Source of the DNA: Bryoerythrophyllum caledonicum
Lineage: Eukaryota > Streptophyta > Bryopsida > Pottiales > Pottiaceae
Reading direction: 5' to 3'
Assembly (NCBI GenBank): GCA_963971425.1
Contig: OZ020518.1
Span: 12,220,190 to 12,284,189 of the forward strand
DNA length: 64,000 nucleotides
Shown here: positions 2,649-61,794 of the stretch, in pieces
Position numbering within the stretch: the stretch's first letter is position 1
Layout of the letters: each line of letters starts with the position of its first letter
Notes under the pieces: model-generated
Database searches by the model: none
Told to the model about the DNA's origin: nothing
Seen by the model: the letters and a program-made list of their open reading frames with translations, nothing else
Program-made: the position numbers and the translations under genes

Positions 2649-3217
2649 TAAGGTGGTATATATTTAGTGTCACAAATGGTTTTGGAATTAGTTACAAACC
2701 TTCTACTGCCGAAAAGTGAAAATGTAGGACCAACCTTTGAGTTCTACTGATGGAATGTAGAAGGTAACTTGAATAAAAGGGTGGACACATAGGCAAGTTT
2801 AGTTTTGACTAACGGTTTGGCCAATCTAGGTATATCTTTCAGATATACATACTTGTCACAGGTATACAAACAAACAACAAATATACTGATTTTGAGAGAT
2901 CTAAAAGGTAAATTACTTTGAAACTTCTAGGACGCATCCACGCCACAATGTGTTCATATATTTTGATTGGAACTTTTAGATTGGCAACTTATTTTTACTT
3001 TTATTGCCAAAAAACATGCTAAGCATTCAAGGCTCATTAATTAGGGATCACTGTTGTTTCTTGCTTCAATTTTTATTGAATTAGATACATCACATACAGT
3101 AATCCATCTAACATAAATTTTTCTTCCAAAAAAAGTTTTTTTTCCCATAAATTTGGGTCAAAAACGGTTTTTTGGTATACTTGGAGGTATATTTTTTTTG
3201 CCCAAAAGTGAGTAACC
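2649..3217. other. AT-rich intergenic stretch, left arm
   Basis: No credible gene. The stretch is AT-rich with runs of A and T near 3125-3200. It separates the 242-codon ORF from the transposase exon, both on the minus strand. The mirror is 32044-32612. Confidence 0.6.
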
Positions 3218-3946
3218 CTAGCTGACTTTCACCCATTCCGGATATGTATCACGCAAAGCGCTTGTTGAGTTCTCCGGAACTGCGTTGTTCCGTTTGTGGT
3301 TGTCAGATGCTCCAGGATGAATTCCGATAGCGCCTTCGTCAGCATCTCCAGCATTGCTTCCAGTACCAGATGGTAACAGAAGAATTTGATAGCCACTCCA
3401 GAGGACGAGATGACCAATAGATTTTCCGAGTTCATTGTTTCCTGGAACCTCACTGTATGCTGCATGGTGGACAAACTTTGGATTCACCGAAGAAACCCGA
3501 ACGACAAGGAAAAAGCTGTGAGGAACTAGAAAGCCCTCCCAAGTTCCCTTCGAAGAGCATTCGTCGATGATTCCGATTGCCGTGCACTGTCTCCGACTTT
3601 CAGTGTCATCAAGGAGGGCGACCTCCATGCCAGCTTGCAGATCGAGGAACTCCTGAACCAGCTTGACATCCTCAGCCTCCACAGACTTGGTCAACGAGGT
3701 CTGCTCTTCGACTTTAGCGTATGGTCTCAAGTCAGCAACTTCCCATAATATTGATTGGCCTAGACAATCACGAAGCATTTTAACGCCAGCAGCTGGGAAT
3801 GGAATTGGCATTTCCATTGCATCAGACAATTCCACAATCCTCAGTCGAACCATCAAAGGGTCTCTGAGAATAATTCGTTCAATCATAGCCCGACCAGCAA
3901 AGTAAAGTCCAGAATGGGTTAGGGCAACCACAACACCTCTACGCAC
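3218..3946 (-). CDS. Putative transposon accessory protein with two DUF8039-like segments (left copy)
   Basis: This is the mirror of 31315-32043, differing by two amino acids. Here the middle reads QCTAIGIIDE, while the right arm reads QCAAIGIIVE. The frame opens without ATG and the first methionine is about 20 codons in, so a spliced upstream exon or a broken start is likely. See the right-arm entry for domain reasoning. Confidence 0.45.
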   Translation of the reverse strand: MRRGVVVALTHSGLYFAGRAMIERIILRDPLMVRLRIVELSDAMEMPIPFPAAGVKMLRDCLGQSILWEVADLRPYAKVEEQTSLTKSVEAEDVKLVQEFLDLQAGMEVALLDDTESRRQCTAIGIIDECSSKGTWEGFLVPHSFFLVVRVSSVNPKFVHHAAYSEVPGNNELGKSIGHLVLWSGYQILLLPSGTGSNAGDADEGAIGIHPGASDNHKRNNAVPENSTSALRDTYPEWVKVS

Positions 3947-5290
3947 GGTCCATCGACCTCACCGTCCATTTCTGATAAAGGACTGAATTGGTTCAATATC
4001 CATTTCGTAGTTCTGATTCCGTCTTAGAATCTAATGATTCGAATTGTTGATCAACTTCAAGGCGAGCCACTATAGACCGGAGGTTGAACTGATTAATTCA
4101 CGAAGAGACTGAATTGCCCAACGCCCAGTAAGAAATCATGCCAGATGAATGCACTGGCATCAACGGCTGCTGCCGTCGGCTGGCAGCCGAGGACTCCGCC
4201 TCCAATGATCTCCGCTGCCCCGAGTGGTCGCCAGCTTCATCCGCCGACAGAGTATTGGCACCCGCCAGTGGAATTGTTATCCAGCATTCCAAGTGCTAGG
4301 AATCATTGCCCTCTAACCCGAAGCATGATGATCAACTCGTGCGTGCATCAATCAGTGAACTCAGTCAGATCTGCAGAATCTAGGTGGTCCAGCGCCATAT
4401 ATATCCTCTAGACAAATCTTAAGAATTTCAGCAGGTGCGAAGCGAATGATGTCCTTCCTGTCATTGGATATCACACAAGCCAAACATGATAAGGTCTCCT
4501 CAACAGACAGTCTGATTGTACATCCTAAAAATGTGTATTCTTCCTACTGGAATAGAACAAAACACCTGAGAGGAAGAGCTCCAGAATCCTTAAACCTAGG
4601 ATCATCTCAAGTACAGAATCCTGCAGACCTAGCAAGATCCTACAATCAATGACCAAAGGTATTAAAGATAAAATGAAGCGGACAACTGTGAGAGAGTAAG
4701 CGCATTGAAGGAAGGAAATGATAGTCCGTGAATGACAACTGAATGGGACGAAGATGAGGATGTAACCAAAGGCCGCACCCTGCAGGGCGCGGGAAATTCA
4801 AATTGAATATCGCCCGCCAAAATCGAAAACAAATTGTAGCCACGGTATCGCGCCAAATTTTAAAATGCTGAAATCTGTGCGAAATCACCGAAGTTTTGCT
4901 GTTAATAATCTGAGCGACATTCGAGCATGCTTCAAGATTGGTCGAATTAGCAGCACATGATATTAATCTCAAAAATGCATTTCTCATTCAACAACATCTT
5001 CTTTCAAGGATTAAAAATCACATGTCCCATGGACATGTCATGTGACATGGAACATCACATGTCACATGGAACATCACATGTCACATGGCACATGTCACAT
5101 CCCCCATCCTGGCTCTTGATTACCCTCAGATGCTTGATCGAACGGTTGCGTCGATTCCTACGAACAAGGTATAAAAATCGAGGTGCGTTCATGTTTTGGC
5201 ACATTTGTGTTCTTACGCATTGTTAAGATTTAGTTTAGCGCAAGAGTTAAGGTTTAAGGTAGTTTAAGGAGCGACGCGGCGCGCAATATT
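3947..5290. other. Non-coding stretch with CACATG palindromic repeats, left arm
   Basis: No convincing ORF. A dyad of the form GTCGGCTG-GCAGCCGA lies near 4175-4195. Around 5018-5101 there is a run of overlapping palindromic ACATGT/CACATG words in 17-19 bp steps. The mirror is about 29970-31314. Confidence 0.5.
5018..5101. repeat. ACATGT/CACATG palindromic simple repeat (left copy)
   Basis: Alternating CATGTCAC and ACATGG words occur in 17-19 bp units and give many overlapping 6-bp dyads. Mirrored at 30160-30243. Confidence 0.7.
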
Positions 5291-5295
5291 GCTGC

Positions 5296-5536
5296 CAGCC
5301 GACGGACGTTCGGCGCCTACGCGACGGGTGCATTGTAATTGAGCAGCCGACGTCCATCGATCACCAGCCGACAGACGTTCAGCGCGAACTCGACGGGTGC
5401 ACAGGGATTGAGCAGCCGACGTTCACCGATTAGCAGTGGACGTCTACCGTTCACCAGCCGACGTCCCGGGGTCACCAGCTGACGGAATGGATAGCAACAG
5501 GTACGATTTCAAAACAACGTTGGCGGCCAGCCGACG
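5296..5536 (+). repeat. CAGCCGACG motif cluster, mostly 21-bp phased (left copy)
   Basis: CAGCCGACG or one- to two-base variants start at 5296, 5344, 5364, 5412, 5433, 5454, 5475 and 5528. Spacings are 48, 20, 48, 21, 21, 21 and 53 bp. The first four form two copies of a 68-bp composite that also carries CGACGGGTGCA. Each unit contains CCGAC, the core of plant DRE/CRT elements, but no function is shown. Mirrored at 29725-29965. Confidence 0.75.
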
Positions 5537-5769
5537 GGACGCTGTTTGCATTGCTGTAACAGATCAGCTTCTCGTTGTGGGTCTGTTGTTATTTAGTTAC
5601 TGTTTTCAGAGTTGTCTAAATGATCGTGACGGCGGAAAAATCTGGCAGGATGTCACATTTACCTACACAGAGCCACGTCGGATACGGAAGCAAATCTACA
5701 TGCCAACTGTGCAGACATGTCATCACGTTGGGTAATTTGGTGCGTGGAAATTCAAAGAAATGTGGGCCC

Positions 5770-6545
5770 GACCGTGTGCGCCCATCCGCGCCCTATCCGC
5801 GTCCATCCGCGGCCTGTCCGCGCCCAGTTCCGGACTAAACATCCCAGTGTCCGCGACCCAGCTTCGCGCAATCCGCGACCTGTCCGCGGCCTGTCCGAGA
5901 TCCTTCCGCGGCCAGACCGGGGCTAATCCGCGCCCATTCCGCGCCCCATCCGCGCCCCATCCGCGCCCCATTCGCCCCACCCGCGCCCCTTCCGCAGCCC
6001 ATCCGCGGCCAGTCCGCGCCCCTTTCGCGCCCCATCCGCTGCCAGTCCGCGCCCCATCCGCGGCCTGTCCGCGCCCCTTTCGCGCCCCATCCGATGTCAG
6101 TCCGCGCCCCATCCGCGGCCATGGTCCCAACATCTCTCAGTCCGCGATCCACCCTCGCCCCATCCTCGCCCAGTCCGCGGCCTGTCCGCGGCCCGTCCGC
6201 GCCCCTTCCGCGGTCCATCCGCGGCTCGTCCGCGTCCCACCCGCGGCCAGTGAAGTGCCCCTCCGCGCGTAGTACGGGACCCAACATCTCTCAGTCCGCG
6301 ACCCACCCTCACTTAGTCCGTGGCCTGTCCGCGCCCCGTCCGCGGCCTGTCCGCTGGTCCATACTCCACTTGTGCGCGGCTCATCCTCGCTCAGTCCGCG
6401 GCCGTCCCGCGGTCTATCCGCGGAAGTAATACGCTTCCACCCGCGCGCACCATCCGCGACTAATCCGCGGCACAACTGCTACCCCACCCGCGTACCTTGT
6501 CCGCGCGCTGTCCGCGACTATTCCGCTCCCAGTTCGCGGGCCACC
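5770..6545 (+). repeat. 11-bp CpG-rich tandem array 1 (left copy)
   Basis: This is a degenerate array of 11-bp units with consensus close to RTCCGCGNCCM, about 70 units long, with TCCGCG recurring at 11-bp steps. The ORFs on both strands here are repeat translations rich in Pro, Arg, Ala and Gly, not genes. The array is one unit longer than its mirror (28727-29491): three ATCCGCGCCCC units near 5940-5975 against two in the mirror. Confidence 0.9.
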
Positions 6546-7350
6546 CTGCTAGTTGAAGGCCATTTTGAAAATGTTTCTAAGAAAGAGCTTTCAATAATTT
6601 TGTAACTGAAACAAAGTTCTTTAAATAATTTAGCTACTTTTATTCTATACGTGCCAAACTAGTTTTTTTTGTTTCGTGTGATTTCTCTCAAATTGATGAC
6701 CAAATGTTGTGGATTTTGCAGACGTATATGATTCATGATGAGAATGTTTGACATTTCCATGCTTTAAACAAGTAGATAGGTGATACATTGTTTCCCTGCC
6801 ACTTGTTTTATACTTGGGATTTTTTTGTTTTTTGACTTTTTTGCTTTGACTGTATTGGTATTTGATTGAATGAGTTATTTATTTTGTTTGTTAACATTGT
6901 TGGATTTTGATGTTTTGAATAGTTGACCTCTTATCGCTATAGGTGCATGGTGTGGTGCTTGTGAATTCATACTTCCAATCCGCGCCTCCCATCCAAAAAC
7001 AAAAGGCACTCCTCTCAAGTATTGCTTGTAACTTAGAAAAAAAATTGCCCAATGGAACCGTTGAACGTGGGATTTTTAAAGACAACGAAAAGAGCATAAC
7101 AAGGAAGGGAACACGAAGATGAAGGGTTTTGAAGTGCTTTTGGAACAAATGTTAAGAAATATAGACTTGCAAAAGCCCACTTGTTGCTCAAAAAATAACG
7201 GCAGTGGTCGAGCCAGTTGACTATATTAAATTATAATCACAAGATGTTCATACATATCAAATATTTAGAACTTGCACATAAAAAGTGAAAACTATCTGTC
7301 CGATTCTGAGAACTGCATATTTAGAGCAACTTCTACTATCTAGTTCTCTA
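6546..7350. other. AT-rich intergenic stretch, left arm
   Basis: AT-rich sequence with T-runs at 6663-6672 and 6820-6845. No supported gene. It lies between array 1 and the 3' end of gene B. Mirror about 27922-28726. Confidence 0.6.
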
Positions 7351-7357
7351 GTGCGGT

Positions 7358-7690
7358 TCAAATATAATCTTGGATTGCTTGCTGAATTAATTCAGCAACT
7401 TCGGTGCTGATTTCCACGTTCTGCGTGCTCCGCACCCGATCAAGTAGTTCCCCAACGTCATCACTCATTAAGTCCAAGAGATTTTCAGCTGTAATGCCGT
7501 AACTATTGATGGCATCAATAATATTCGTGGGGACGTTTTGGTAACAGAATATGTCATATATACGTTTCCATTCCAACCAATACTCTTCCTCCATCCTTTC
7601 TTGTTCAAGTGTGCGAGGTGCAACCACTTGCCCCGGTAGCGACGACACGGGCACTGATTCATCATTCCAAGTTAGATACAAACGTCCCAT
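7358..7690 (-). CDS. Gene B: small acidic protein with a SAM-like helical domain (left copy)
   Basis: Mirror of 27582-27914 with identical translation. The start is the ATG at 7688-7690, giving 110 residues. It is read away from array 2 (7925-8370), with the conserved dyad module (7747-7859) in its upstream region. Full description is under the right-arm copy. Confidence 0.5.
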   Translation of the reverse strand: MGRLYLTWNDESVPVSSLPGQVVAPRTLEQERMEEEYWLEWKRIYDIFCYQNVPTNIIDAINSYGITAENLLDLMSDDVGELLDRVRSTQNVEISTEVAELIQQAIQDYI

Positions 7691-7746
7691 CGCCTTTCTT
7701 CTGTATCGTAAATCCTGAATCAGATGATGACAAAAAAACTGATAAA

Positions 7747-7859
7747 AGTGAGTACAAATATTTCCACTTACGGTCCTCAAAGGGACCACTTTCCCACTTG
7801 AATACCCCGCACACCGCCGTCAACGTGGAGGCAAGTGAGTCAAGGCATCCTAGAATTGG
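7747..7859 (-). promoter_or_regulatory. Conserved dyad-bearing upstream module (left copy)
   Basis: Mirror of 27413-27525 and related to 14334-14456. It contains the CCTCCACGTTGAC word, GTGCGGGG, GGGAAAGTGG and a GGTCC-N6-GGACC dyad. It lies between array 2 and the ATG of gene B. A role as promoter or leader is inferred from position and conservation. Confidence 0.5.
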
Positions 7860-7924
7860 AAAAGTGAATTTCCACACTGACCCGAAATGACTTATTAGCA
7901 TTCCACGCCCCGTTGTCCGAGACC

Positions 7925-8370
7925 CATCGCATACACATCCGCGCCCGATGATTGCCCTATCCGCGGCTCGTCCGCGTTCCGTCCGCGTTCTGTCCGCGGC
8001 CTCATCCGCGACCTGTCCGAGGCCAGTCTGCGCCCTGTTCGTGGCCAGTCCGCGCCCTGTCCGCGGCTCGACCGCGTTCTGTCCGCGGTCTCATCCGCGC
8101 CCTGCCCCCGCCCTGACCGCTCCTCGTTCGCGGCCAGTCTTCGCCCTGTCCGCGGCTCGTCCGCGATTCAACCGGGGCCAAATCCGCGCCCTGTCCGCTG
8201 CCAACGTCTTCCCGTCCGCGCCACTGTCCGCGCCAATCCGCCGCCCATCCGCGGCCAGTCCGCGGTATGTCCGCGGAAGTCGGTCCACGCTTTCACCCGC
8301 GCACCCCATCCGTGACAAGTCCGCGGCCCACCCGCTCGCCCCACCCGCGACCTGTCCGCGCCCATCCGCC
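7925..8370 (+). repeat. 11-bp CpG-rich tandem array 2 (left copy)
   Basis: About 40 degenerate 11-bp units of the same TCCGCGGCC type as array 1. It lies between gene C (8496-8971) and gene B (7358-7690). The mirror (26902-27347) has the same length. Confidence 0.9.
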
Positions 8371-8495
8371 AAATTATTGTGATATGCATTCTAAAAGGAA
8401 ATAGCTTGTGGCCGGGGCTTGTTTTACTGATGCATATTTTTTCATGCGCAAATGGAGCAAACCTAGTAGTAATACAACAAACACCGAATTATCTT

Positions 8496-8971
8496 TACAT
8501 ATTCTCCTTCCGGGCTCGATCTATTTGCCTCTTAAGCTTTTCATACCGCGTTGGCCATGTTGACTTCAACTCATTAGCATATGAACTACGTTTCGACGTG
8601 CTAGATGTACTATCTCCATCGAGTGAATATGGTTTGTATTGCTGATGGAACATTGTCCTAGTACTTCCTTGTTGTTGTCATGTCCTAGGATTACGGGTGG
8701 ATCCATGGATTTGCACGCTTGAAGTGCTTGAACGTGCATTAAGTCCTTTGTCCATGGTATTCCTCATATCCAGCTCCTCGCTCCCGCCGAGTAGCATTGC
8801 CCCTTCCTCTAGCATTGCTTTGTCCCCATCAACAAACTCCCCTTGCACCTCGTGATTGGCCTCCAATGGAAGATGTTCACTACCCTCACACTCGTTACTC
8901 TTGACATCGGACCACATAAGTAAGAACTCAAGAACCTCATCCTCCAAACTTATGATGCTATCATTCTCCAT
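8496..8971 (-). CDS. Gene C: acidic protein of unknown function with one in-frame stop (left copy)
   Basis: Mirror of 26301-26776. The minus-strand frame starts at the ATG ending at 8971 and is broken by an in-frame TGA at 8678-8680, after which the same frame stays open to 8496. The same stop is present in both arms. See the right-arm copy for composition and context. Confidence 0.4.
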
Positions 8972-9026
8972 GTCTAGGCGCACACACTAACTCACTAGAA
9001 ACCCACAAAAAGGGCTTGAGCGTTCA

Positions 9027-9070
9027 GTTGGGGTGCTATATATTCCTAGTTGGGGTGCTATATATTCCTA
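9027..9070. repeat. 22-bp direct duplication containing TATATA (left copy)
   Basis: Two perfect head-to-tail copies of a 22-bp unit beginning GTTGGGGTGCTATATATTCC, at 9027-9048 and 9049-9070. It lies between gene C and array 3. The TATATA words could act as a core promoter for gene C, which starts about 60 bp away; this is inference. Mirrored at 26202-26245. Confidence 0.75.
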
Positions 9071-9600
9071 GCTGCTTATCCGCACCACTGTCCGCGGCTC
9101 ATCAGCGGCCTGTCCGCGGACCCGTCGCGACATGTTCCAGGCCTGTCCGCAGTCCGTCCGCGGTTAGTCCGCGGATTGGATGATGCATTTCCGTCGAAGG
9201 CAGTCCGCGTAGAGCGAGGCACGTCCAGCCCGCGGTCTATCCGCGTCCATTTTAAGGGCTGTCCGCGTCCAATTCGCGGGCACTCCCTGGCATTTCGCCA
9301 CCCGCAATCCGCGGCCAATCCGCGGCCAGTCCGCGACCAATCCGCGGCCAATCCGCGGCCAGTCCGCGACCAATCCGCGGCCAGTCCGCGACCAGTCCGC
9401 GGCCAGTTAGCGACCAGTCCGCGGTCTGTCTTCGGCGAGCCCGCACGTTGTCCGCGCCCCATTTGCTGCCCGTCCGCGACCCGTCCGCGCCCTATCCGCG
9501 ACATTTGTGCGCCCGATCTTGTTCGTCGCGTACTGCATCCGCGCCCCACCCGCGGCTCATCCGCGCTCCCTATTCGCCCCGTCCGCACCCAAGCGCACGG
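9068..9600 (+). repeat. 11-bp CpG-rich tandem array 3 (left copy, five units longer)
   Basis: Array of the 11-bp TCCGCGGCC unit between divergently read gene C and the hAT transposase gene. The most regular part (9306-9420) shows about nine clean units alternating AATCCGCGGCC and AGTCCGCGACC types before the AGTTAGCG landmark. The mirror array shows four there, a difference of 55 bp. Confidence 0.92.
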
Positions 9601-9775
9601 CCTCTCCATATGAATCGTAGTATAATTACTGTCGTAACAACTCACAAGGGCGCTTTCCCTTCCCCCTTACTGGTTTCAAGACCTTGGGTTCTTTACACGA
9701 GAACGCATTGCATGAGACCGCCTTGTCAAGGGTGGATGGAGGTTCCCTCCGTTTGAGGTCAACTCAATCTACAAC

Positions 9776-12307
9776 ATGCCTCCTCGGAATGTTGTGTGGG
9801 ATCTATGGTATGAAGACTTGGGTAACACTCTCTCAAGATCCGCGCGACAGGTGAAATGCCGGTTTTGCTCCGACGTGATGAGCTATAGAGCAGACAAGAT
9901 GTTTTCGCATATGGGGTACCATCCTGGTACCAATAGAGGACGTGATGTTCAAGTGTGTAGGGCGGTGCCTCCACATGTTCGTGTCTTGTTTCGAAGATGT
10001 AATGGAGATGTTCCAAATCATCCTAGTGTTGCTGATGATATCCCCCTTCGGCCAAACGGCGATGATGAAATTCAAGTGGAGCCCATGTTGTCTCAACCTT
10101 TGAATGATGACGTGGAGCAACGTCCGACCTCCCAAACCACACGTGATCAGGAATCGACACAAGTACATACAGAACCTCGAGATTTGCGCCAACTCTCTTT
10201 GTCCGAAGGTTTCAACGCCTCCGCTAAGCAACTCTTGGACAGGGTTTGGTCTAGTGCTTTTTATGAAGCCAACATCCCATTTAATATCACTAGACACCCC
10301 TCGTTTGTTAAGGCGGTTCGCGAAACTGCACGCATTCGAATGCCGGCGTACAACCCGCCGTCCTATAATGCCATACGTACAAAGTTGTTGACCAACCGGA
10401 AAGCTGATTTAGAAAGGGAGATCACTACGGCTATGGGTAACTCCGTGTCAAAATATGGTGTTACGGTATGTAGTGATGGATGGGACAATGTTCAAAACCG
10501 GCCTTTGCTCAATGTTGTTCAGTCTGGCACGAAAGGGGATGTTTTCCTTGGCACCATTGATACATCGGGGAATTATAAGGACCACCACTATATTGCTTCT
10601 CAAACCCGACCGTTCTTGCAACAAAATGTTGTCCAAGTATGCACCGACAATGCCCCGGTTATGGCGCTTGCATGTCGTGACATCATGGAGGCTATTCCCC
10701 ATCTCTACGTCCAAGGATGTGCTGCTCATTGTTTGGATCTTCTCCTAGAGGATTGGGGGAAACAAAATTGGATAAGCAGGACCACGAAGAAAGCAAGGAA
10801 AATTTGTTTGTTCGTCAAGAACCACCACGCTCCACAGGGTGTCTTTCGAAGGTTATCACCAAATCTTGCTCTTCGCGCGCCCGGTGAAACAAGATTTGCA
10901 ACAAACTTTCTCATGATAGAACGCCTCCTCGAAGTACGCCAAGCACTAGAGAGAATGGTTGTTGATGATGACTGGTATGCTTACATTGCGGAGTTGCGGA
11001 CCAAGGCCCCGGCTGCACATGCGATGGGCATGTATGTGCGGCAGGTGATACGTTCTGATGGATTTTGGTATTTATGTGCAAATTTTGTGTACATGGTGTT
11101 GCCGGTGGTACGTACTCTTCATGTGTTTAACGGCAGTGCTCCGGTGATGGGACTTGCTTGGAAGATTATGCATGATTTAGAAATCCATGTTCGAGGGTTT
11201 GTGAATGCCCCGTTCCGCATGGAGGAAGAATATGCGGCTCTGGCAATGGAGGCCTTCCAAGCGAGGTGGACTCTGATGCTTACAGATCTTCATTGGGCTG
11301 GGGCTATGTTAAATCCTTCTTTGCAAGCATGGGCGCCTTTACATGAAAATGAACATTCCAGACCAATCTTAAATCGTGTACTTCGTAAACTTGTCACGGG
11401 CGATGAAGATCTTGGAAGGGTCCTCAACCAATACCAAGATTTTATTGAAAACAGGGGAACATTTGCAGATTCGATGGACCCAGGCGTGCTCAATGTGTTG
11501 CCGCACGAATGGTGGGACGCAATGGGAGGCGCGGCAAGGGCACTACAGATCATAGCAAGACGCATACTTGCTCAAGTGTGTTCGTCTTCGGCATGCAAAC
11601 GAAGTTGGAGCATGTACTCCTATGTTCACAACAAGTCCCGCAATCGCCTAAAACATAGCCTAGCAGAGGACCTAGTTTACATTTATACAAATTCTAGGCT
11701 TCTAAGGCATCGAAGGGGAACGAGGGTTGGCCAGTGGCTTGAGCTAAACGGTGTGCATTCCGATGATGAAAGCAATGGAGAAGACATGGACAATGCAAAT
11801 GAGGGAGGACCTTATCCTATTGGCAGTGATGAATTCGGGAACTCTGATATGGACGTCGACAATCATGATTCTGATACTGAAGATTCGGATGGTGGTAGAG
11901 GTGGAGGTGGCAATGGGGGGGCTCGTCATGACGTCGACGACATGTGGGATTCAGAAAATCAGGATCCTAACCGTGGAGGTGGAGGTGGAGATATAGGGGT
12001 TTTTGATTTCAACGAGGTCGAGCCACCGCAACAACGTGTTATGGCGCCACCCAACCGTGACGGAGTTGATGAAGGGCCGACCTTTGGACAACTTTCTGCT
12101 GGTCAAGGACTTTGGCGTAGTCAGAAAGGGCCCCCGGCGGGCCATGCAAATATTGACTCGCCTTTCCAATCTCAAAGTGATTCGCTATCATTTCACGAAG
12201 AAGGCCGATGCGTCATGGATCACATGGATGAGGAGGTTACTACACAAGCGGGGTGTACATCTCAAGAGCTGTTAAGGTCCGCCTACAATTGTGCTTCAAA
12301 TCCATAG
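9776..12307 (+). CDS. hAT-superfamily transposase (BED finger, DUF659, hAT dimerisation), left copy
   Basis: An uninterrupted 843-codon ORF starts at the ATG at 9776. Residues ~20-60 form a BED-type zinc finger (C28, C31, H45, H49). Residues ~189-335 look like the DUF659 transposase core, with a CSDGWDN motif near 232 and VCTDNAP near 289 supplying candidate catalytic aspartates. Residues ~598-642 match the hAT C-terminal dimerisation region (SSSACKRSWS, then NRLKHSLAEDLVYI). The last ~190 residues are a Gly/Asp-rich acidic tail. By family knowledge such enzymes act in the nucleus, cutting and pasting hAT elements with 8-bp target duplications. I could not identify terminal repeats or a target duplication here. 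The arm copy at 23020-25551 has the same translation. The ORF ends in TAG with the same frame open afterwards. Confidence 0.9.
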   Translation: MPPRNVVWDLWYEDLGNTLSRSARQVKCRFCSDVMSYRADKMFSHMGYHPGTNRGRDVQVCRAVPPHVRVLFRRCNGDVPNHPSVADDIPLRPNGDDEIQVEPMLSQPLNDDVEQRPTSQTTRDQESTQVHTEPRDLRQLSLSEGFNASAKQLLDRVWSSAFYEANIPFNITRHPSFVKAVRETARIRMPAYNPPSYNAIRTKLLTNRKADLEREITTAMGNSVSKYGVTVCSDGWDNVQNRPLLNVVQSGTKGDVFLGTIDTSGNYKDHHYIASQTRPFLQQNVVQVCTDNAPVMALACRDIMEAIPHLYVQGCAAHCLDLLLEDWGKQNWISRTTKKARKICLFVKNHHAPQGVFRRLSPNLALRAPGETRFATNFLMIERLLEVRQALERMVVDDDWYAYIAELRTKAPAAHAMGMYVRQVIRSDGFWYLCANFVYMVLPVVRTLHVFNGSAPVMGLAWKIMHDLEIHVRGFVNAPFRMEEEYAALAMEAFQARWTLMLTDLHWAGAMLNPSLQAWAPLHENEHSRPILNRVLRKLVTGDEDLGRVLNQYQDFIENRGTFADSMDPGVLNVLPHEWWDAMGGAARALQIIARRILAQVCSSSACKRSWSMYSYVHNKSRNRLKHSLAEDLVYIYTNSRLLRHRRGTRVGQWLELNGVHSDDESNGEDMDNANEGGPYPIGSDEFGNSDMDVDNHDSDTEDSDGGRGGGGNGGARHDVDDMWDSENQDPNRGGGGGDIGVFDFNEVEPPQQRVMAPPNRDGVDEGPTFGQLSAGQGLWRSQKGPPAGHANIDSPFQSQSDSLSFHEEGRCVMDHMDEEVTTQAGCTSQELLRSAYNCASNP

Positions 12308-12829
12308 TGTATTCCGACCATAATTGTGGGAATTGTATCCACGTCTGCTGTAGAAGTTGCTGTGAATGCAGTAGCCACTGAGAATGAAGTACCTTCCGAA
12401 GTTGGAACCCAAAATCGGCCGTTGACTTGTAGTAATGCAGAGGCGGGTAGAACCGTTGGAGTACTCACTCGTGGGATTGGTGCTTCATTTGTAGCACTTC
12501 AAAATGATCGTCCAATTAATGTACAAGGAACAAGCCGTCGTCAATCCAGTCTACAAAGTAGCGTTCAAACCCGTCGTGCTGGAAGACAAACTCTTGCTTC
12601 TACAGGCGGGAGAGGCCGCATTGTACAAAGGGGTGGAAGGAGGTTGGGAAACGCAGGAAGAGGAACATCTTTCTTGATAAATGTACGCCACAATGCAATT
12701 GTAGACGTATCTATAGCGATCCCTCACCGCGGAGAAGCTTCTACTAGCACGCCTAGTGCTAGTGGCCGGAGGAGGACTACACGAGGGACGAAGAGGCGTC
12801 GAAGAATAAAGGAACGATATTGCCATTGA
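12308..12829 (+). CDS. In-frame extension after the hAT TAG (left copy)
   Basis: Directly after the TAG at 12305-12307 the same frame stays open for 173 codons to TGA at 12827-12829. The product would be Ser/Thr/Arg-rich and basic, ending in an RRRTTRGTKRRRR-like stretch that resembles a nuclear-localisation signal. There is no ATG near its start. It could be a 3' exon, a readthrough extension, or a tail cut off by a nonsense change. The arms differ here by three residues (S/P, R/C, S/P). Confidence 0.4.
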   Translation, partial: CIPTIIVGIVSTSAVEVAVNAVATENEVPSEVGTQNRPLTCSNAEAGRTVGVLTRGIGASFVALQNDRPINVQGTSRRQSSLQSSVQTRRAGRQTLASTGGRGRIVQRGGRRLGNAGRGTSFLINVRHNAIVDVSIAIPHRGEASTSTPSASGRRRTTRGTKRRRRIKERYCH

Positions 12830-13056
12830 GTGGTGACAACTACGATCCATCCGAAGGAAGACCCAATTTGGATGACAATGGAATACGTGACGTTGAGGGT
12901 TCTCGTCCAACGAGGAGGTTGGTCATCACTCGAAATGAAAACTTGCAACTTAGAAGCGGTGCTCCTCAAACTGACGACGAAAAGAGCACGGATGACTCCG
13001 ACGTGGATTCACGATGCATAGAAGAAAATGACCCAACGGTTCGAGTGCGGACTTAA
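12830..13056 (+). CDS. Possible 3' exon downstream of the hAT ORF (left copy)
   Basis: In a different frame from the preceding segment, this stretch encodes about 75 residues rich in Asp, Glu, Arg and Ser, ending at TAA. Its composition resembles the acidic hAT tail, so it may be a last exon. No ATG starts it and I recognise no domain. Mirrored at 22271-22497. Confidence 0.25.
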
Positions 13057-13932
13057 ATGTAGTGGAACGTCTTTGTTGTCCCCATTATACGTGTTGAGCG
13101 GTTTAGGGATACGTACTATGTCTTTTACATGATTTAGAAATGCTTTTGTATTTCTATTTAAAGTTTCTTAATCCTTTAGATACATATATCTTTTGCCGCC
13201 ATTGCCCCTTTACATTATGTTGTCCTTCATTTTATTGTATTGCTTTTGGAAAAATATTCATGACCATTTCTTGAATTTGGCCACTTCAAAGTGTGGTTTA
13301 GTATTTCACTTTTTTCCATGTCTTTGTATGATTTTTGGAGATAACCACCGGACTCTTTGTGAAAAATTGTTGTGCGTTGTGGATGTGGCATAATCTTACG
13401 GCTAAAGAATTTGTGCCTTCCTACTTAATGGATTAGGACTGCTTTAGTAATTAGTGCTTAGGTTTAGGGGCAAGACGGGGCGGACAGTAATATGCTACAT
13501 CACAAAAATGAACGGCCAGTTTTGAAGCCATACAGTTTTCATCAAAAAACCATATGGTGTCTAAAGCTCTAGGGTACGTTATCGTTATTAGATGCAAACA
13601 ATACCATAGATAGTAAAAGGGTTTAGGGTTCAAACACTTTGGATGGTAGGATGGTTTTAGGGTTTAAGAATGATGTTTTTGTTGTTATAGGGACTACTAT
13701 AGTTGCTGAAGGGTTCTGCAAAAAATGTACACACATCGGTGGCAATGTTTTAGACTTCCTATGATGCAAACTCTAGATATTGAAGTCCTATCTAATTTAA
13801 TAGTGATCATTGGGAATGTGGTACAAAATGTTACCAAATATGTAACTACTGGTCGAATAGATGTTGGCAAAAGATTAGCTTAGCCCGATCAATAACCGAG
13901 CAATTATGCACGAGACTATTGTGCATCGTTGG
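13057..13932. other. AT-rich non-coding inner end of the left arm with telobox-like motifs
   Basis: No supported gene. Telobox-like GTTTAGGG words occur at about 13461-13470, 13619-13630 and 13653-13665. These are isolated motifs, not a telomere array. Sequence continues to the N gap at 13933. Mirror 21395-22270. Confidence 0.6.
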
Positions 13933-14132: not shown

Positions 14133-14312
14133 GGACAGGTCGTGGACGGGCCGCGGACTTGGCGCAGACAGGAGAGGCGGACGGGTGCGGACGATTGGTT
14201 AACTGGTGCCATCGGGAAACGACCGGGCGCGGGCAGGCCCCCCATTGGCCGCGGACGACGAGTCGCGGGCAGCCTCGGTTGGAGTCTGCGGACTAGTATA
14301 AAGAGCGGATGG
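14133..14312 (-). repeat. 11-bp CpG-rich tandem array 4 (partial, upstream of gene A)
   Basis: Units such as GGACGGGCCGC follow each other at 11-bp steps at the gap edge and become more degenerate toward 14312. Orientation is GGAC-forward relative to gene A. The array is cut by the N gap, so its full length is unknown. Confidence 0.8.
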
Positions 14313-14456: not shown

Positions 14457-14697
14457 CAAAGGCAACTGAGCAGGTATCGAAGATGTCCAAGTTCCCGTGA
14501 AGACCGCATTTAGATCAGTTTTTAGCATTCTCAGGCAACACTATTATGAAGTGCATGCCTAGGATTTAGTTTAGCACTATTTTGAAGTGCATTTAGACCG
14601 GGAATATGTTTTAGATTTTATTATACTGAATTGAGATAGTGGACTAGTATTTGGATAGCCATTTAGTCGGACTAGACCAATTAAAGACTTCGTAACC

Positions 14698-16533
14698 ATG
14701 AATAACGACGGTGGTGGAGATGGAGGGCGGAGGAGGCCAGATGTGCCAGAGATAGCGGTGGGTCCCCTGAAAAGAGCAAAGAAGGTGCTTGATTCGCAGT
14801 GGGATCTTTACCGCGACAACAGCATTTTGGCAAATGATGGATGGGAACATATTCGTGAGCCATGGACATGCCAGCAGGCCTACGATCATGTTGGCTTTCC
14901 GCACCTCGATCGGTGGTATCCTGAAGAATTACACAAGCAGCATTGTCGTACCAGACAACTCTCTTATAATTCCATTCCAGACGTGGAATTGAAGTGGAGG
15001 TTCTTGGAGGTTTTACGAGCCATCTCTTTCCAAATGCGGTGGCCAAAGAACGAGATTCCGAAGAGAATAGGTGCGATGGTGTACGTGGAGCGGGTGTTGC
15101 GGAAGCGAGTTGACTGGTCAACGCTCCATGAACCATTGATTTTGACCGGCCACGTTGGAAAGAGCTTAGGCGCCCATCTGTTAGCAATACAACCCGGTGA
15201 TATTCCCTCAACCGCGGTGCCGGATTGGTTCCGTAGAGATCCGAGATTGGTTGATCCGCCGGGCGTACCATTACCTGCAGGTCGAGTGGTGCCGAAGAAG
15301 CGAGAACGGGCAAGAGCTAGAGAGGTGGCCAATGTGGAGGGGCCCAATGTGGAGGTGGCCAATGTGGAGGTGCCCAATCGTGGAATGGATGATGTTAACT
15401 ATATGTTCCATAGCATTCAAAACGACGGAGGTGCTGGAACGTCTACCGCGGGGGCGGTCCATAATCCATCAAGCTCGCATATGCTTATCGAATATGATGT
15501 GGCAATCACGCTAGCGAGTGTAGGACTTGGCAATATTGGGATCGGACAGAACGAAGCAATTCAACGTAGAGTGGCGGATCCCGGTACTTCAGCTGAGACA
15601 GAGCATCAATACCAACAATTGCGTGCTGAATTTCACCAGTACAAGTTGCAGATGCAAGAACGCGAAAATCAAGTCTCGTTGCAAGCATCCAAATTCAAAG
15701 AGGAGAAACAGAAGCTTTATACCCAGATCGGCGAGTTGCAATTTAATGTACGGACAGCCTCCAAAAAGATTTCCAAACACGAGGCGGATGTTACTGCCTT
15801 GCGACAGGAAGTATACAATCTTCACAAGGAGCGGGAAACCATGATGTTGGGCACGGTATTATCGACGGCAACGGCGAAGCAATACGAGGCAGAGATTTCA
15901 AAGATTGCCGTTGAGTGGACATCCAGCCGTCGGTTGAGAACGTTGTTACTAACATCTTGGCCGACGGATGAATGTATGTATCCATCCGGTTGGGAGGACA
16001 TGGATCCGTCGATAGTTACACGAGACGGTAGCATTGACTAGGCGCGAGTCCCTGAACCGGATCATAAATGGAATATTGACAAGAGGGATGGCGGCACCGA
16101 GGAAGTTCACAAGATATGGCGATTTGCGAATGTCATGACACAAGATGGATCTAAGTGTGCGGTTTGCCAAAGTCCTTGGGGCCCAAAAGGCTGCTTCACG
16201 CTCGGAACATGTGGGCATTCGTTTCACCCTCAATGTCTAATTGGAAATATGATACGGACGCGTACATGCATCGTCTGCAAATCGCCTTACCATGCCCGCC
16301 TATATCTCCAGTTTGGGCTCAGGGACTTCATGCCAGTCCATTGGGTGTATCGCCAAGAAGATCATCCAAATTTCGAAGTTGGAGCCTCTGCTGGGCTACC
16401 CGTCGAGTGGAATTGGAGATACAACGTCTCAGTCGCAGAACTTGTTGCTGCAAACGAGCAAGCCGGAACCCTGAATGATCCGGACAAACTCATGGAGGCG
16501 GCCCATTCCACAACTCATCCGCAGAGCAAGTAG
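14698..16533 (+). CDS. Gene A: coiled-coil/RING protein with one in-frame TAG
   Basis: The frame opens at the ATG at 14698 and runs 447 codons to TAG (16039-16041), then stays open in the same frame for 163 more codons to TAG at 16531-16533. The first part has a basic, Trp-rich N-terminal half of unknown fold, repeats of a VANVE/PNVE type near residue 220, and a long Gln/Glu/Lys-rich coiled coil at about residues 300-400. The second part is a RING-H2-like finger (CxxC, CGHSFHPQC, CIVC), then an LYLQFGLRDFMP segment shared with the fragment at 19696-20285. By family knowledge RING fingers usually recruit E2 enzymes for ubiquitination; activity here is inference. Upstream lie a dyad module and an 11-bp array. 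An ATG at 16135, just before the RING, could start a separate protein. Confidence 0.55.
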
Positions 16534-23019: not shown

Positions 23020-25551
23020 CTATGGATTTGAAGCACAATTGTAGGCGGACCTTAACAGCTCTTGAGATGTACACCCCGCTTGTGTAGTAACCTCCTCATC
23101 CATGTGATCCATGACGCATCGGCCTTCTTCGTGAAATGATAGCGAATCACTTTGAGATTGGAAAGGCGAGTCAATATTTGCATGGCCCGCCGGGGGCCCT
23201 TTCTGACTACGCCAAAGTCCTTGACCAGCAGAAAGTTGTCCAAAGGTCGGCCCTTCATCAACTCCGTCACGGTTGGGTGGCGCCATAACACGTTGTTGCG
23301 GTGGCTCGACCTCGTTGAAATCAAAAACCCCTATATCTCCACCTCCACCTCCACGGTTAGGATCCTGATTTTCTGAATCCCACATGTCGTCGACGTCATG
23401 ACGAGCCCCCCCATTGCCACCTCCACCTCTACCACCATCCGAATCTTCAGTATCAGAATCATGATTGTCGACGTCCATATCAGAGTTCCCGAATTCATCA
23501 CTGCCAATAGGATAAGGTCCTCCCTCATTTGCATTGTCCATGTCTTCTCCATTGCTTTCATCATCGGAATGCACACCGTTTAGCTCAAGCCACTGGCCAA
23601 CCCTCGTTCCCCTTCGATGCCTTAGAAGCCTAGAATTTGTATAAATGTAAACTAGGTCCTCTGCTAGGCTATGTTTTAGGCGATTGCGGGACTTGTTGTG
23701 AACATAGGAGTACATGCTCCAACTTCGTTTGCATGCCGAAGACGAACACACTTGAGCAAGTATGCGTCTTGCTATGATCTGTAGTGCCCTTGCCGCGCCT
23801 CCCATTGCGTCCCACCATTCGTGCGGCAACACATTGAGCACGCCTGGGTCCATCGAATCTGCAAATGTTCCCCTGTTTTCAATAAAATCTTGGTATTGGT
23901 TGAGGACCCTTCCAAGATCTTCATCGCCCGTGACAAGTTTACGAAGTACACGATTTAAGATTGGTCTGGAATGTTCATTTTCATGTAAAGGCGCCCATGC
24001 TTGCAAAGAAGGATTTAACATAGCCCCAGCCCAATGAAGATCTGTAAGCATCAGAGTCCACCTCGCTTGGAAGGCCTCCATTGCCAGAGCCGCATATTCT
24101 TCCTCCATGCGGAACGGGGCATTCACAAACCCTCGAACATGGATTTCTAAATCATGCATAATCTTCCAAGCAAGTCCCATCACCGGAGCACTGCCGTTAA
24201 ACACATGAAGAGTACGTACCACCGGCAACACCATGTACACAAAATTTGCACATAAATACCAAAATCCATCAGAACGTATCACCTGCCGCACATACATGCC
24301 CATCGCATGTGCAGCCGGGGCCTTGGTCCGCAACTCCGCAATGTAAGCATACCAGTCATCATCAACAACCATTCTCTCTAGTGCTTGGCGTACTTCGAGG
24401 AGGCGTTCTATCATGAGAAAGTTTGTTGCAAATCTTGTTTCACCGGGCGCGCGAAGAGCAAGATTTGGTGATAACCTTCGAAAGACACCCTGTGGAGCGT
24501 GGTGGTTCTTGACGAACAAACAAATTTTCCTTGCTTTCTTCGTGGTCCTGCTTATCCAATTTTGTTTCCCCCAATCCTCTAGGAGAAGATCCAAACAATG
24601 AGCAGCACATCCTTGGACGTAGAGATGGGGAATAGCCTCCATGATGTCACGACATGCAAGCGCCATAACCGGGGCATTGTCGGTGCATACTTGGACAACA
24701 TTTTGTTGCAAGAACGGTCGGGTTTGAGAAGCAATATAGTGGTGGTCCTTATAATTCCCCGATGTATCAATGGTGCCAAGGAAAACATCCCCTTTCGTGC
24801 CAGACTGAACAACATTGAGCAAAGGCCGGTTTTGAACATTGTCCCATCCATCACTACATACCGTAACACCATATTTTGACACGGAGTTACCCATAGCCGT
24901 AGTGATCTCCCTTTCTAAATCAGCTTTCCGGTTGGTCAACAACTTTGTACGTATGGCATTATAGGACGGCGGGTTGTACGCCGGCATTCGAATGCGTGCA
25001 GTTTCGCGAACCGCCTTAACAAACGAGGGGTGTCTAGTGATATTAAATGGGATGTTGGCTTCATAAAAAGCACTAGACCAAACCCTGTCCAAGAGTTGCT
25101 TAGCGGAGGCGTTGAAACCTTCGGACAAAGAGAGTTGGCGCAAATCTCGAGGTTCTGTATGTACTTGTGTCGATTCCTGATCACGTGTGGTTTGGGAGGT
25201 CGGACGTTGCTCCACGTCATCATTCAAAGGTTGAGACAACATGGGCTCCACTTGAATTTCATCATCGCCGTTTGGCCGAAGGGGGATATCATCAGCAACA
25301 CTAGGATGATTTGGAACATCTCCATTACATCTTCGAAACAAGACACGAACATGTGGAGGCACCGCCCTACACACTTGAACATCACGTCCTCTATTGGTAC
25401 CAGGATGGTACCCCATATGCGAAAACATCTTGTCTGCTCTATAGCTCATCACGTCGGAGCAAAACCGGCATTTCACCTGTCGCGCGGATCTTGAGAGAGT
25501 GTTACCCAAGTCTTCATACCATAGATCCCACACAACATTCCGAGGAGGCAT
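23020..25551 (-). CDS. hAT-superfamily transposase (BED finger, DUF659, hAT dimerisation), right copy
   Basis: The 843-codon ORF starts at the ATG ending at 25551, and its translation is identical to the left-arm copy at 9776-12307. Domains are the same: BED finger at residues ~20-60, DUF659 core at ~189-335 with CSDGWDN and VCTDNAP, hAT dimerisation region at ~598-642, and an acidic tail. It is transcribed away from array 3 (25727-26204), which it shares with the divergent gene C. An intact ORF of this length in both arms suggests a transposase that was recently active, with the two copies in opposite orientation about 10.7 kb apart. Confidence 0.9.
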   Translation of the reverse strand: MPPRNVVWDLWYEDLGNTLSRSARQVKCRFCSDVMSYRADKMFSHMGYHPGTNRGRDVQVCRAVPPHVRVLFRRCNGDVPNHPSVADDIPLRPNGDDEIQVEPMLSQPLNDDVEQRPTSQTTRDQESTQVHTEPRDLRQLSLSEGFNASAKQLLDRVWSSAFYEANIPFNITRHPSFVKAVRETARIRMPAYNPPSYNAIRTKLLTNRKADLEREITTAMGNSVSKYGVTVCSDGWDNVQNRPLLNVVQSGTKGDVFLGTIDTSGNYKDHHYIASQTRPFLQQNVVQVCTDNAPVMALACRDIMEAIPHLYVQGCAAHCLDLLLEDWGKQNWISRTTKKARKICLFVKNHHAPQGVFRRLSPNLALRAPGETRFATNFLMIERLLEVRQALERMVVDDDWYAYIAELRTKAPAAHAMGMYVRQVIRSDGFWYLCANFVYMVLPVVRTLHVFNGSAPVMGLAWKIMHDLEIHVRGFVNAPFRMEEEYAALAMEAFQARWTLMLTDLHWAGAMLNPSLQAWAPLHENEHSRPILNRVLRKLVTGDEDLGRVLNQYQDFIENRGTFADSMDPGVLNVLPHEWWDAMGGAARALQIIARRILAQVCSSSACKRSWSMYSYVHNKSRNRLKHSLAEDLVYIYTNSRLLRHRRGTRVGQWLELNGVHSDDESNGEDMDNANEGGPYPIGSDEFGNSDMDVDNHDSDTEDSDGGRGGGGNGGARHDVDDMWDSENQDPNRGGGGGDIGVFDFNEVEPPQQRVMAPPNRDGVDEGPTFGQLSAGQGLWRSQKGPPAGHANIDSPFQSQSDSLSFHEEGRCVMDHMDEEVTTQAGCTSQELLRSAYNCASNP

Positions 25552-25726
25552 GTTGTAGATTGAGTTGACCTCAAACGGAGGGAACCTCCATCCACCCTTG
25601 ACAAGGCGGTCTCATGCAATGCGTTCTCGTGTAAAGAACCCAAGGTCTTGAAACCAGTAAGGGGGAAGGGAAAGCGCCCTTGTGAGTTGTTACGACAGTA
25701 ATTATACTACGATTCATATGGAGAGG

Positions 25727-26204
25727 CCGTGCGCTTGGGTGCGGACGGGGCGAATAGGGAGCGCGGATGAGCCGCGGGTGGGGCGCGGATGCAGTACGCG
25801 ACGAACAAGATCGGGCGCACAAATGTCGCGGATAGGGCGCGGACGGGTCGCGGACGGGCAGCAAATGGGGCGCGGACAACGTGCGGGCTCGCCGAAGACA
25901 GACCGCGGACTGGTCGCTAACTGGCCGCGGACTGGCCGCGGATTGGCCGCGGACTGGCCGCGGATTGCGGGTGGCGGAATGCCAGGGAGTGCCCGCGAAT
26001 TGGACGCGGACAGCCCTTAAAATGGACGCGGATAGGCCGCGGGCTGGACGTGCCTCGCTCTACGCGGACTGCCTTCGACGGAAATGCATCATCCAATCCG
26101 CGGACTAACCGCGGACGGACTGCGGACAGGCCTGGGACATGTCGCGACGGGTCCGCGGACAGGCCGCTGATGAGCCGCGGACAGTGGTGCGGATAAGCAG
26201 CTAG
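25727..26204 (-). repeat. 11-bp CpG-rich tandem array 3 (right copy)
   Basis: Same array as 9068-9600 in reverse complement, five units shorter. It lies between divergently read hAT transposase (minus) and gene C (plus), a position fitting a shared bidirectional upstream region. Confidence 0.9.
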
Positions 26205-26245
26205 GAATATATAGCACCCCAACTAGGAATATATAGCACCCCAAC
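26202..26245. repeat. 22-bp direct duplication containing TATATA (right copy)
   Basis: Mirror of 9027-9070. Two perfect 22-bp copies end about 55 bp before the gene C ATG at 26301, so the TATATA words are in a plausible core-promoter position. Confidence 0.7.
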
Positions 26246-26300
26246 TGAACGCTCAAGCCCTTTTTGTGGGTTTCTAGTGAGTTAGTGTGTGCGCCTAGAC

Positions 26301-26901: not shown

Positions 26902-27347
26902 GGCGGATGGGCGCGGACAGGTCGCGGGTGGGGCGAGCGGGTGGGCCGCGGACTTGTCACGGATGGGGTGCGCGGGTGAAAGCGTGGACCGACTTCCGCG
27001 GACATACCGCGGACTGGCCGCGGATGGGCGGCGGATTGGCGCGGACAGTGGCGCGGACGGGAAGACGTTGGCAGCGGACAGGGCGCGGATTTGGCCCCGG
27101 TTGAATCGCGGACGAGCCGCGGACAGGGCGAAGACTGGCCGCGAACGAGGAGCGGTCAGGGCGGGGGCAGGGCGCGGATGAGACCGCGGACAGAACGCGG
27201 TCGAGCCGCGGACAGGGCGCGGACTGGCCACGAACAGGGCGCAGACTGGCCTCGGACAGGTCGCGGATGAGGCCGCGGACAGAACGCGGACGGAACGCGG
27301 ACGAGCCGCGGATAGGGCAATCATCGGGCGCGGATGTGTATGCGATG
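26902..27347 (-). repeat. 11-bp CpG-rich tandem array 2 (right copy)
   Basis: Same length as the left copy. GGAC-forward relative to gene B, the same orientation as array 4 relative to gene A. Confidence 0.9.
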
Positions 27348-28726: not shown

Positions 28727-29491
28727 GGTGGCCCGCGAACTGGGAGCGGAATAGTCGCGGACAGCGCGCGGACAAGGTACGCGGGTGGGGTAGCAGTTGT
28801 GCCGCGGATTAGTCGCGGATGGTGCGCGCGGGTGGAAGCGTATTACTTCCGCGGATAGACCGCGGGACGGCCGCGGACTGAGCGAGGATGAGCCGCGCAC
28901 AAGTGGAGTATGGACCAGCGGATAGGCCGCGGACGGGGCGCGGACAGGCCACGGACTAAGTGAGGGTGGGTCGCGGACTGAGAGATGTTGGGTCCCGTAC
29001 TACGCGCGGAGGGGCACTTCACTGGCCGCGGGTGGGACGCGGACGAGCCGCGGATGGACCGCGGAAGGGGCGCGGACGGGCCGCGGACAGGCCGCGGACT
29101 GGGCGAGGATGGGGCGAGGGTGGATCGCGGACTGAGAGATGTTGGGACCAGGGCCGCGGATGGGGCGCGGACTGACATCGGATGGGGCGCGAAAGGGGCG
29201 CGGACAGGCCGCGGATGGGGCGCGGACTGGCAGCGGATGGGGCGCGAAAGGGGCGCGGACTGGCCGCGGATGGGCTGCGGAAGGGGCGCGGGTGGGGCGA
29301 ATGGGGCGCGGATGGGGCGCGGAATGGGCGCGGATTAGCCCCGGTCTGGCCGCGGAAGGATCTCGGACAGGCCGCGGACAGGTCGCGGATTGCGCGAAGC
29401 TGGGTCGCGGACACTGGGATGTTTAGTCCGGAACTGGGCGCGGACAGGCTGCGGATGGACGCGGATAGGGCGCGGATGGGCGCACACGGTC
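28727..29491 (-). repeat. 11-bp CpG-rich tandem array 1 (right copy)
   Basis: Reverse complement of 5770-6545, one 11-bp unit shorter and with a few base differences. Confidence 0.9.
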
Positions 29492-29724
29492 GGGCCCACA
29501 TTTCTTTGAATTTCCACGCACCAAATTACCCAACGTGATGACATGTCTGCACAGTTGGCATGTAGATTTGCTTCCGTATCCGACGTGGCTCTGTGTAGGT
29601 AAATGTGACATCCTGCCAGATTTTTCCGCCGTCACGATCATTTAGACAACTCTGAAAACAGTAACTAAATAACAACAGACCCACAACGAGAAGCTGATCT
29701 GTTACAGCAATGCAAACAGCGTCC

Positions 29725-60729: not shown

Positions 60730-61321
60730 ATGCAGTTGCCCATAACCAACGGTGATCACGCCATAGACCCCACGTGACATTACTGACGCATTTATCATCA
60801 TTGGCGTCCAGGGCTCCGTTATGACGCTACTGGCTATTCATCATCAAGGCAATTGATAAGTATTCCGAACCAAAGAAGTTGATGATGTCTTAAGTCCACT
60901 GGTGGAAAAGAATGAACAAATTTTATTATGCACATTTCAATTTTGTAGGAAGAATAAGACGTCTCATGTTAAGACCAATTTGATACATAAGTTGTACCAA
61001 TTTCAAAACATTGCAGGTTAGCCTCTCTTATATTTTGATAAGGTAGTACCTGCAAGCGTTGTCTATCGTGACATTGTGACAATGATGCATCATCATGACA
61101 AGTTGTGTTATAACACACCCTCAATAAAATCAACACAATAAAATCAACGTAGGATTAAAGACTGTCTTTACCCCTATGAAGGATAAGTTAGTTACCTCTT
61201 TGCCATCGTGGCCATCTGGTGGTATGGATATCTGAAGTTGCTATCCAAAACAACAATCATATCCTACGTGTGTACCACCATGTTATTGCGGTGGTTTAAC
61301 TCCCTATTCTTGTTTGCTTTA
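60730..61321. other. Degenerate stretch without a supported gene
   Basis: Possibly further decayed sequence of the preceding relic; stops in all frames. Confidence 0.4.
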
Positions 61322-61420
61322 GTACGCGCCTTGTCTGCAATTTGTCCACATCATGTCTGCGCCTTGTCCGCATTCTATTTGCGTCTTGTCTGCACCCTAT
61401 CTTCACCATGTCCGCGCCTT
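61322..61420 (+). repeat. Decayed 11-bp array (related to arrays 1-4)
   Basis: Nine consecutive 11-bp units (GTACGCGCCTT, GTCTGCAATTT, GTCCACATCAT, GTCTGCGCCTT, GTCCGCATTCT and so on) keep exact spacing while many CG positions have become TG or CA. Confidence 0.75.
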
Positions 61421-61794
61421 GCTTGGGACATCCGAAGCCCATCCTTGCGTCCGACCCCCGCATCTTTGAGCGGACAAGGCGGGCGGAATTCTTGCTAAAA
61501 TGTCATTTGTGAGACATTTTCAACATCCGCATATTGCAAGGATGTAAAACATGTGTTTGGAGGTGTGTTTTGATCTACTATTAGGGTATTTGTAGCCAAA
61601 ATATTTGTTCATGATCATGTCTAGGTCGAGCCAATTTCTTCTACTTCGTAAGGTTGTAGCAAAAAAATGATTCTTCAATTGTTCCTTGTGAAGACATTTT
61701 TGGCATCATCATTTCATAAAGATTTTGAAAACTTCTTTTTTAATGTCATTTGAATCAAATATGAGGCTACTAGAGCCTCTTAAATGTGGCCATA

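Follow-up and report, generated by a model that had tools for sequence, protein, structure and literature searches.

The stretch analyzed here is a window of 64,000 nucleotides from the moss Bryoerythrophyllum caledonicum (GenBank assembly GCA_963971425.1, contig OZ020518.1, positions 12,220,190 to 12,284,189 of the forward strand), which holds several arrays of a CpG-rich unit of about 11 base pairs (bp) built around a TCCGCG core. These arrays belong to a large, multi-gene family of hAT transposons, in which one array separates the transposase-side (R) end of the element from the TATA box of its transposase gene and another precedes a second gene, in agreement with an earlier sequence-only reading of the window that had placed them next to genes. 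We propose, with a probability of roughly 0.65, that the arrays constitute repeated transposase-binding sites doubling as the transposase promoter, that is, the subterminal and promoter repeats of this hAT family.

Array position was compared across the transposase copies ranking 3-23 without row 19, which corresponds to element E10; these 20 copies have 68-75% identity to the window protein. In all 20 copies the R end is found 609-1044 bp upstream of the ATG (17-base match, 18 exact and two with one mismatch), the array starts 228-390 bp inside that end (178-390 bp in 21/21 with the window included), TATAAA stands at -152 to -159 and the last TCCGC at -177 to -210, i.e. 25-58 bp before the TATA box. 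Between the R end and the ATG, 19 of the 20 copies contain at least three exact TCCGCG, and 0/20 contain an exact CGCGGA. At the opposite (L) end, sampled eight times in listing order with ends in loci already examined omitted, the array begins 269-348 bp inside in 8/8 cases. The exact 20-bp L end occurs 128 times genome-wide; among the 62 array clusters listed on C1-C10, which include four from the window itself, 27 lie within 5 kilobases (kb) on its inner side and none within 5 kb on its outer side, with ~0.0015 expected per cluster. Across 20 fetched loci, an inward end lies within 6 kb of 39 of the 51 clusters, in 18 loci; this count omits the cluster at 9277-9341 of locus L009, beyond the far end of the L009 element, and becomes 40/51 if that cluster is counted. 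In the two remaining loci, the exact L end lies 340 bp beyond the fetched stretch (L025) or is degenerate (L023).

Comparison of 20 array loci, which were our own pick among the places listed and favor places with neighboring matches, yielded a boundary that six of them share, CAGGGTTGTCTATCGTGACATTGTGACAG, together with its partner end, CAGGGTTGTCTATTGTGTCGTGACGGGGACA. The ends carry short terminal inverted repeats (CAGGGTTGTCTAT[C/T]GTG at both ends, CAGAGTTGTCTA at the window end), with a CAGGG terminus that we take to be hAT-like. Perfect 8-bp target duplications flank 6/7 end pairs (L009, L020, L021, L026, E10 and E1), including four of the five fetched loci in which both ends are present. 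Two complete elements, chosen for a transposase match near a listed L end, both show such perfect duplications: E10 (13,696 bp, on C10) and E1 (10,848 bp, on C1). Each contains three arrays: one within the R end, one separating the transposase from a second gene of RING type, and one within the L end. The L009 element, only 954 bp long, retains both ends, the 8-bp duplication and an array, with no transposase match inside. Subterminal repeats of a hAT-like element had been one of the candidate roles put forward by the sequence-only reading, and the ends, duplications, transposase and position agree on it across separate copies. Ordinary satellite DNA, which the same reading had named as the contrary outcome, is ruled out, as the sampled arrays sit within hAT ends.

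The features of the window are as follows, with seeds denoting exact TCCGCG or CGCGGA matches.

5607..5784, + strand: R end CAGAGTTGTCTA and subterminal stretch, with one mismatch to CAGGGTTGTC
5785..6517, + strand: array 1, 36 exact TCCGCG
7938..8361, + strand: array 2, 20 exact TCCGCG; array and flank akin to the internal array of the complete elements
9091..9566, + strand: array 3, 23 exact TCCGCG, directly upstream of the transposase gene
9621..9626, + strand: TATAAT, a TATA-like box at -155 relative to the transposase ATG
9776..12307, + strand: hAT transposase frame, with DUF659 and hAT dimerisation region
14133..14300, - strand: internal-array remnant in CGCGGA orientation, 2 exact CGCGGA at 14152-14250, cut by a gap of 200 N (13933-14132)
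14659..16533, + strand: second gene, RING-type finger in its second part, in-frame stop at 16039-16041
23020..25611, - strand: transposase frame, mirror copy
25762..26181, - strand: array 3, mirror copy, 18 seeds, five units shorter
26912..27334, - strand: array 2, mirror copy, 20 seeds
28756..29476, - strand: array 1, mirror copy, 34 seeds, one unit shorter
29477..29654, - strand: R end, mirror copy
61054..61460, + strand: decayed L end AAGCGTTGTCTATCGTGACATTGTGACA with a decayed array inside, starting ~270 bp from the end

Bases 1-51 of the window R end align at 72-76% with bases 1-51 of the R ends of other copies, and bases 47-132 align at 77-80% with six other R ends. The flank of array 2 (7772-7850) is similar to 14346-14426. 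The window transposase scores 105.6 bits for DUF659 and 42.8 bits for PF05699 (hAT dimerisation, cut-off 21.4), and the similarity of its DNA to other copies continues to 13061. An N-terminal BED-type zinc finger is common but not universal in the hAT superfamily; three aligned transposase copies share an N-terminal CX2CX13HX3-4H arrangement (read by eye). A profile search against solved structures gives two chance-level matches (E values of 0.056 and 0.82). The ratio of nonsynonymous to synonymous substitution rates (dN/dS) is 0.24 for the transposase of the window against that of E10, and 0.33 and 0.15 for two parts of gene 2 between the window and E1, where synonymous sites are near saturation. 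For the E1-E10 transposase pair it is 0.71, with very few changes; at a dS of only 0.03, this pair gives no basis for judging recent selection. At the in-frame stop of the window gene 2, the corresponding frame of the C1 copy reads through.

The + strand of the window contains 90 exact copies of TCCGCG and 91 of CGCGGA, against a mean of 22.8 for both together in 10 first-order Markov (Markov-1) sequences. Six clusters take in 151 of these 181 seeds, three on each arm of an inverted duplication, as previously described. The commonest seed spacing is 11 bp (36 pairs on the + strand, 29 on the -), with further peaks at 22, 33, 44 and 55. Periodicity at 11 bp in the three arm A arrays, scored by cosine over pairs separated by 6-66 bp, reaches 0.856, whereas 2000 random placements within the same arrays give a mean of 0.008 and a maximum of 0.190, which puts the common 11-bp phase claimed by the sequence-only reading far beyond chance. 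That reading also held that the spacing is kept where bases vary. When both 11-bp neighbors are exact and the center unit itself is free of any match requirement, center units follow RTCCGCGNCCM both in the window (29 units, 18 with intact core) and over the window plus 24 loci (176 units, 74 intact, 104 distinct). Since these units were not selected for matching, the spacing indeed outlasts base variation. In center units the first five core positions are conserved at 93% (T), 88% (C), 87% (C), 81% (G) and 80% (C), despite the CpGs they contain.

The phasing is local: the phase jumps repeatedly inside arrays, array 1 having three main frames, and multiples of 11 make up only 411 of 775 nearest spacings over the loci examined. 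The suggestion that identical sites lie on one face of the helix thus stands locally and fails over whole arrays, because the phase jumps and the 11.0-bp step exceeds the DNA helical turn of ~10.5 bp. Strict 10.5-bp helical phasing is rejected, the best-fitting period being 11.0 for the window and 10.8-10.9 for the two subfamilies. A search of the 437-megabase genome for the exact tandem pair of the unit, in line with the genome-wide profile check that had been suggested, returned 129 instances (63 forward, 66 reverse) and 0 for the pattern read backwards; the 11-bp step is not fixed, however, with other subfamilies mixing 10, 11 and 13. The decayed array reported near 61322 does retain exact 11-bp steps from 61323 to 61411. 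Of the array reported in the spacer, a copy is present only as a remnant, with two exact CGCGGA beside the 200-N gap. As a control, at least 10 TCCGC on one strand were found in 2/29 chunks of 850 bp covering 36-60 kb of the window, and these two chunks probably come from the arrays near 45-46 kb.

Sorting the 20 copies by R end yields two groups, of 14 and 6. The group of 14 has ATCCGC-type units at steps of 10, 11 and 13 (best period 10.9) and the group of 6 has units like GTCCGCGGCTA (best period 10.8), next to the window type RTCCGCGNCCM (best period 11.0); RTCCGC is common to the subfamilies, while the rest of the unit differs. The window arms differ in length by 66 bp, the exact equivalent of six units, of which one falls in array 1 and, judging from the offsets of aligned pieces, five fall in array 3. 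They also differ at 30 bases, 27 of them transitions. We read the divergence of arrays against their constant place and core as quick turnover of units with place and core kept.

A complete element runs from the R end through an array, the TATA box and transposase, a second array, the RING-type gene and a third array to the L end. Phased binding sites for a transposase or zinc-finger protein, another candidate of the sequence-only reading, would be the most likely function of the arrays. The putative N-terminal zinc finger of the transposase may bind the TCCGC(G) core, as the precedents of Ac, Herves, CGG/CGC-preferring hAT domains and Galileo suggest. Many transposase molecules would be loaded on the repeated sites, marking the element as substrate, and transposase bound just upstream of the TATA box would regulate its own gene, probably by repression. 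The ~11-bp step would place neighboring sites nearly on one face, favoring cooperative binding, and the array would be renewed through gain and loss of whole units. A bolder extension, which we regard as improbable, is that each gene of the multi-gene element is preceded by a separate, helically stepped array of transposase-binding sites, with a single DNA-binding domain governing excision, transposase supply and the RING gene, and that subfamily units (RTCCGCG at 11 bp versus ATCCGC at 10, 11 and 13) changed in step with the transposase, making up a self-titrating, CpG-switchable circuit.

A number of observations weigh against the main proposal, the arrays as subterminal and promoter repeats bound by the transposase. 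Orientation varies at L ends, with mainly GCGGA in four of the eight and mainly TCCGC in the other four. Of the 62 listed clusters, 35 have no exact L end within 5 kb, and a strict-pattern cluster lies within 5 kb of only 25 of 85 listed L ends. L028 has two ends and no 8-bp duplication; the window's own element has no recognizable L end. Pfam calls no zf-BED in the transposase, and the AlphaFold2 model of its N-terminus is unusable (mean predicted local distance difference test score, pLDDT, of 50.8). Center units keep the last G of the core in 60% only and the C at linker position 9 in 82%; with that linker position no less conserved than some core positions, the contrast of core over linker is only modest. 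The arrays of E1 and E10 are 93.4-95.7% identical (with extra gaps in two of the three), compared with 96.5-98.9% in other segments. Together with gain and loss of whole units, this faster divergence suggests that single units are weakly constrained, and site-by-site conservation of units finds no support in either the center-unit profile or the E1-E10 divergence. Finally, a survey of hAT-type domains reports two hAT proteins that preferred AT-rich motifs (PMC8097297).

The arrays could instead be read as promoter or enhancer by a host transcription factor recognizing TCCGC, their place near the end being a by-product of the promoter. This would suit the sense orientation of the R-end array with its last TCCGC 25-58 bp before the TATA box in 20/20 copies, the internal array before gene 2, and the one-sided TCCGCTC-rich arrays of another repeated element in the window, the first of which (45100-46190) precedes a TATA-like GGTATAAAAGGG with no hAT end seen, a point that also counts against our proposal. 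We nevertheless consider a host factor unlikely, given that L ends carry an array too (8/8), that the L-end array of L011 (2564-2127) lies downstream of a kinase stretch (3435 to 2674), and that the 954-bp L009 element keeps its array with no transposase match inside. The TCCGCTC-rich arrays, at 45100-46190 and 57270-58140, hold 23 and 12 TCCGC, respectively, and 0 GCGGA, with steps of 11, 13 and 40; in the element that carries them, 42911-45115 resembles 55070-57285 (97%) and 46123-46447 resembles 58077-58402 (92%).

Neutral minisatellites, expanded in an ancestral element and copied along with it, would make the period a mere record of tandem duplication. An arm length difference of exactly six 11-bp units, higher-order periods of 22, 33, 55 and 89, phase jumps and the faster divergence of arrays would suit such an origin, yet it does not readily account for similar array starts at 21/21 R ends (178-390 bp) and 8/8 L ends (269-348 bp), for RTCCGC shared by subfamilies with otherwise different units, or for the good conservation of core positions 3 and 4, which contain CpG. 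Shared ancestry may account in part for the constancy of starts, RTCCGC and core, and we judge the neutral origin to be quite unlikely overall. That the arrays are CpG-rich methylation targets for host silencing of the element seems to us highly improbable. Their CpG observed/expected ratio of 1.32-1.40, against 0.67-0.98 in the other window stretches measured, and the decayed array, where CpG transitions account for 17 of the 31 changes to the core (hand-counted over 16 units, selected to have at most 3 mismatches), would fit such a role; the high ratio of live arrays, however, speaks against long heavy methylation, and only 5 of the 27 transitions between the arms are in CpG context.

The inverted arms (1-13932 and 21395-35260) are 99.4% identical; beyond the left edge of the window they go on for another ~6.5 kb with 98.5% identity (L029 1528-8000), giving ~20 kb in all. 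Because they run beyond both the window and the hAT end, they are a larger duplication or an assembly feature, and not the ends of the element itself. The duplication may be real, or two copies of one locus may have been joined tail to tail in scaffolding. The arms were also rejected as the long terminal repeats of a foldback element: the inverted repeat takes in 5.6 kb of DNA external to the hAT end and extends past the left edge of the window, and the sequences flanking the two ends, ACTGTTTT and AAAACAGT, are copies in inverted and not in direct orientation. The left arm ends exactly at the 200-N gap. In the sequences examined, at least four TCCGC/GCGGA occur within 200 bp on either side of 8/12 such gaps, versus 409/2829 control positions, and gaps adjoin GC-rich arrays in the window (13933-14132) and in L010, L011, L020, L021, L028, L030 and L033, so array lengths in the assembly may be underestimated.

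Further features of the window and loci were noted in passing. A second type of hAT-like end, CARGGTTGYC closely followed by ACGGAC or GCGGAC, is found at 50726 (-) in the window, at L016 6635 (-) and at L013 7305 (-). A protein-kinase-like frame spans 20202-20900, scoring 31.5 bits in Pfam against a cut-off of 31.7, while 19696-20355 holds a second RING-type relative, recognized by eye. Similar DNA recurs in hAT loci L011, L013, L017, L018, L019, L025 and L027, suggesting that some subfamilies carry a kinase gene.

Subterminal repeats are thought to confer specificity on hAT transposases, and those known in hAT elements are, to our knowledge, a few short motifs; the repeats of Tol2 and Tag1 differ from the present ones in motif, length and phasing. 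The family described here places tens of stepped, similar sites at both ends and before genes, in many copies within one genome. These copies would allow testing whether the arrays raise or restrain transposition, what effect spacing has, and whether binding domain and array change together. A search of open-licence PubMed Central titles and abstracts, with subscription journals and repeat libraries outside its scope, returned no long phased arrays in a hAT family. The earlier statement that no element with such a layout has been described is nonetheless too strong for the kind, as hAT elements with multiple transposase sites in their subterminal regions have been described (PMC3260210, PMC3143072).

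In maize Ac/Ds, the transposase binds cooperatively to repeated subterminal AAACGG, counted within ~200 bp of the ends and present in most short derivative classes (PMC3260210). The likeness lies in a short repeated subterminal motif kept in short derivatives; here, in contrast, the repeats are CpG-rich, advance in 10- to 13-bp steps, start ~180-390 bp inside the ends, extend over hundreds of bp and also occur internally. Transposase sites are likewise repeated or shared subterminally in Herves and, as cited there, in Tol2 and Tag1 (PMC3143072), with Herves differing from this family in motif, length and phasing. Among CGGBP-type hAT DNA-binding domains, a preference for CGG or CGC is the rule at the N-terminus, and for each of the four hAT proteins assayed the motif has matches in subterminal regions (PMC8097297). 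The putative finger of the present family, which may be of this kind, is not called by Pfam. Tandem repeats near element ends are also reported in Galileo, of the P superfamily, where some are bound by a transposase domain (PMC3688188), and in the Mutator-like Muta1 (PMC5225508), but these belong to other superfamilies and their repeats sit inside long terminal inverted repeats. A subterminal site that restrains activity in piggyBat (PMC11707139) provides a note of caution. The kind of organization seen here is already known from Ac, Tol2 and Tag1, and it is scale, phasing and placement before genes that set this family apart as a variant.

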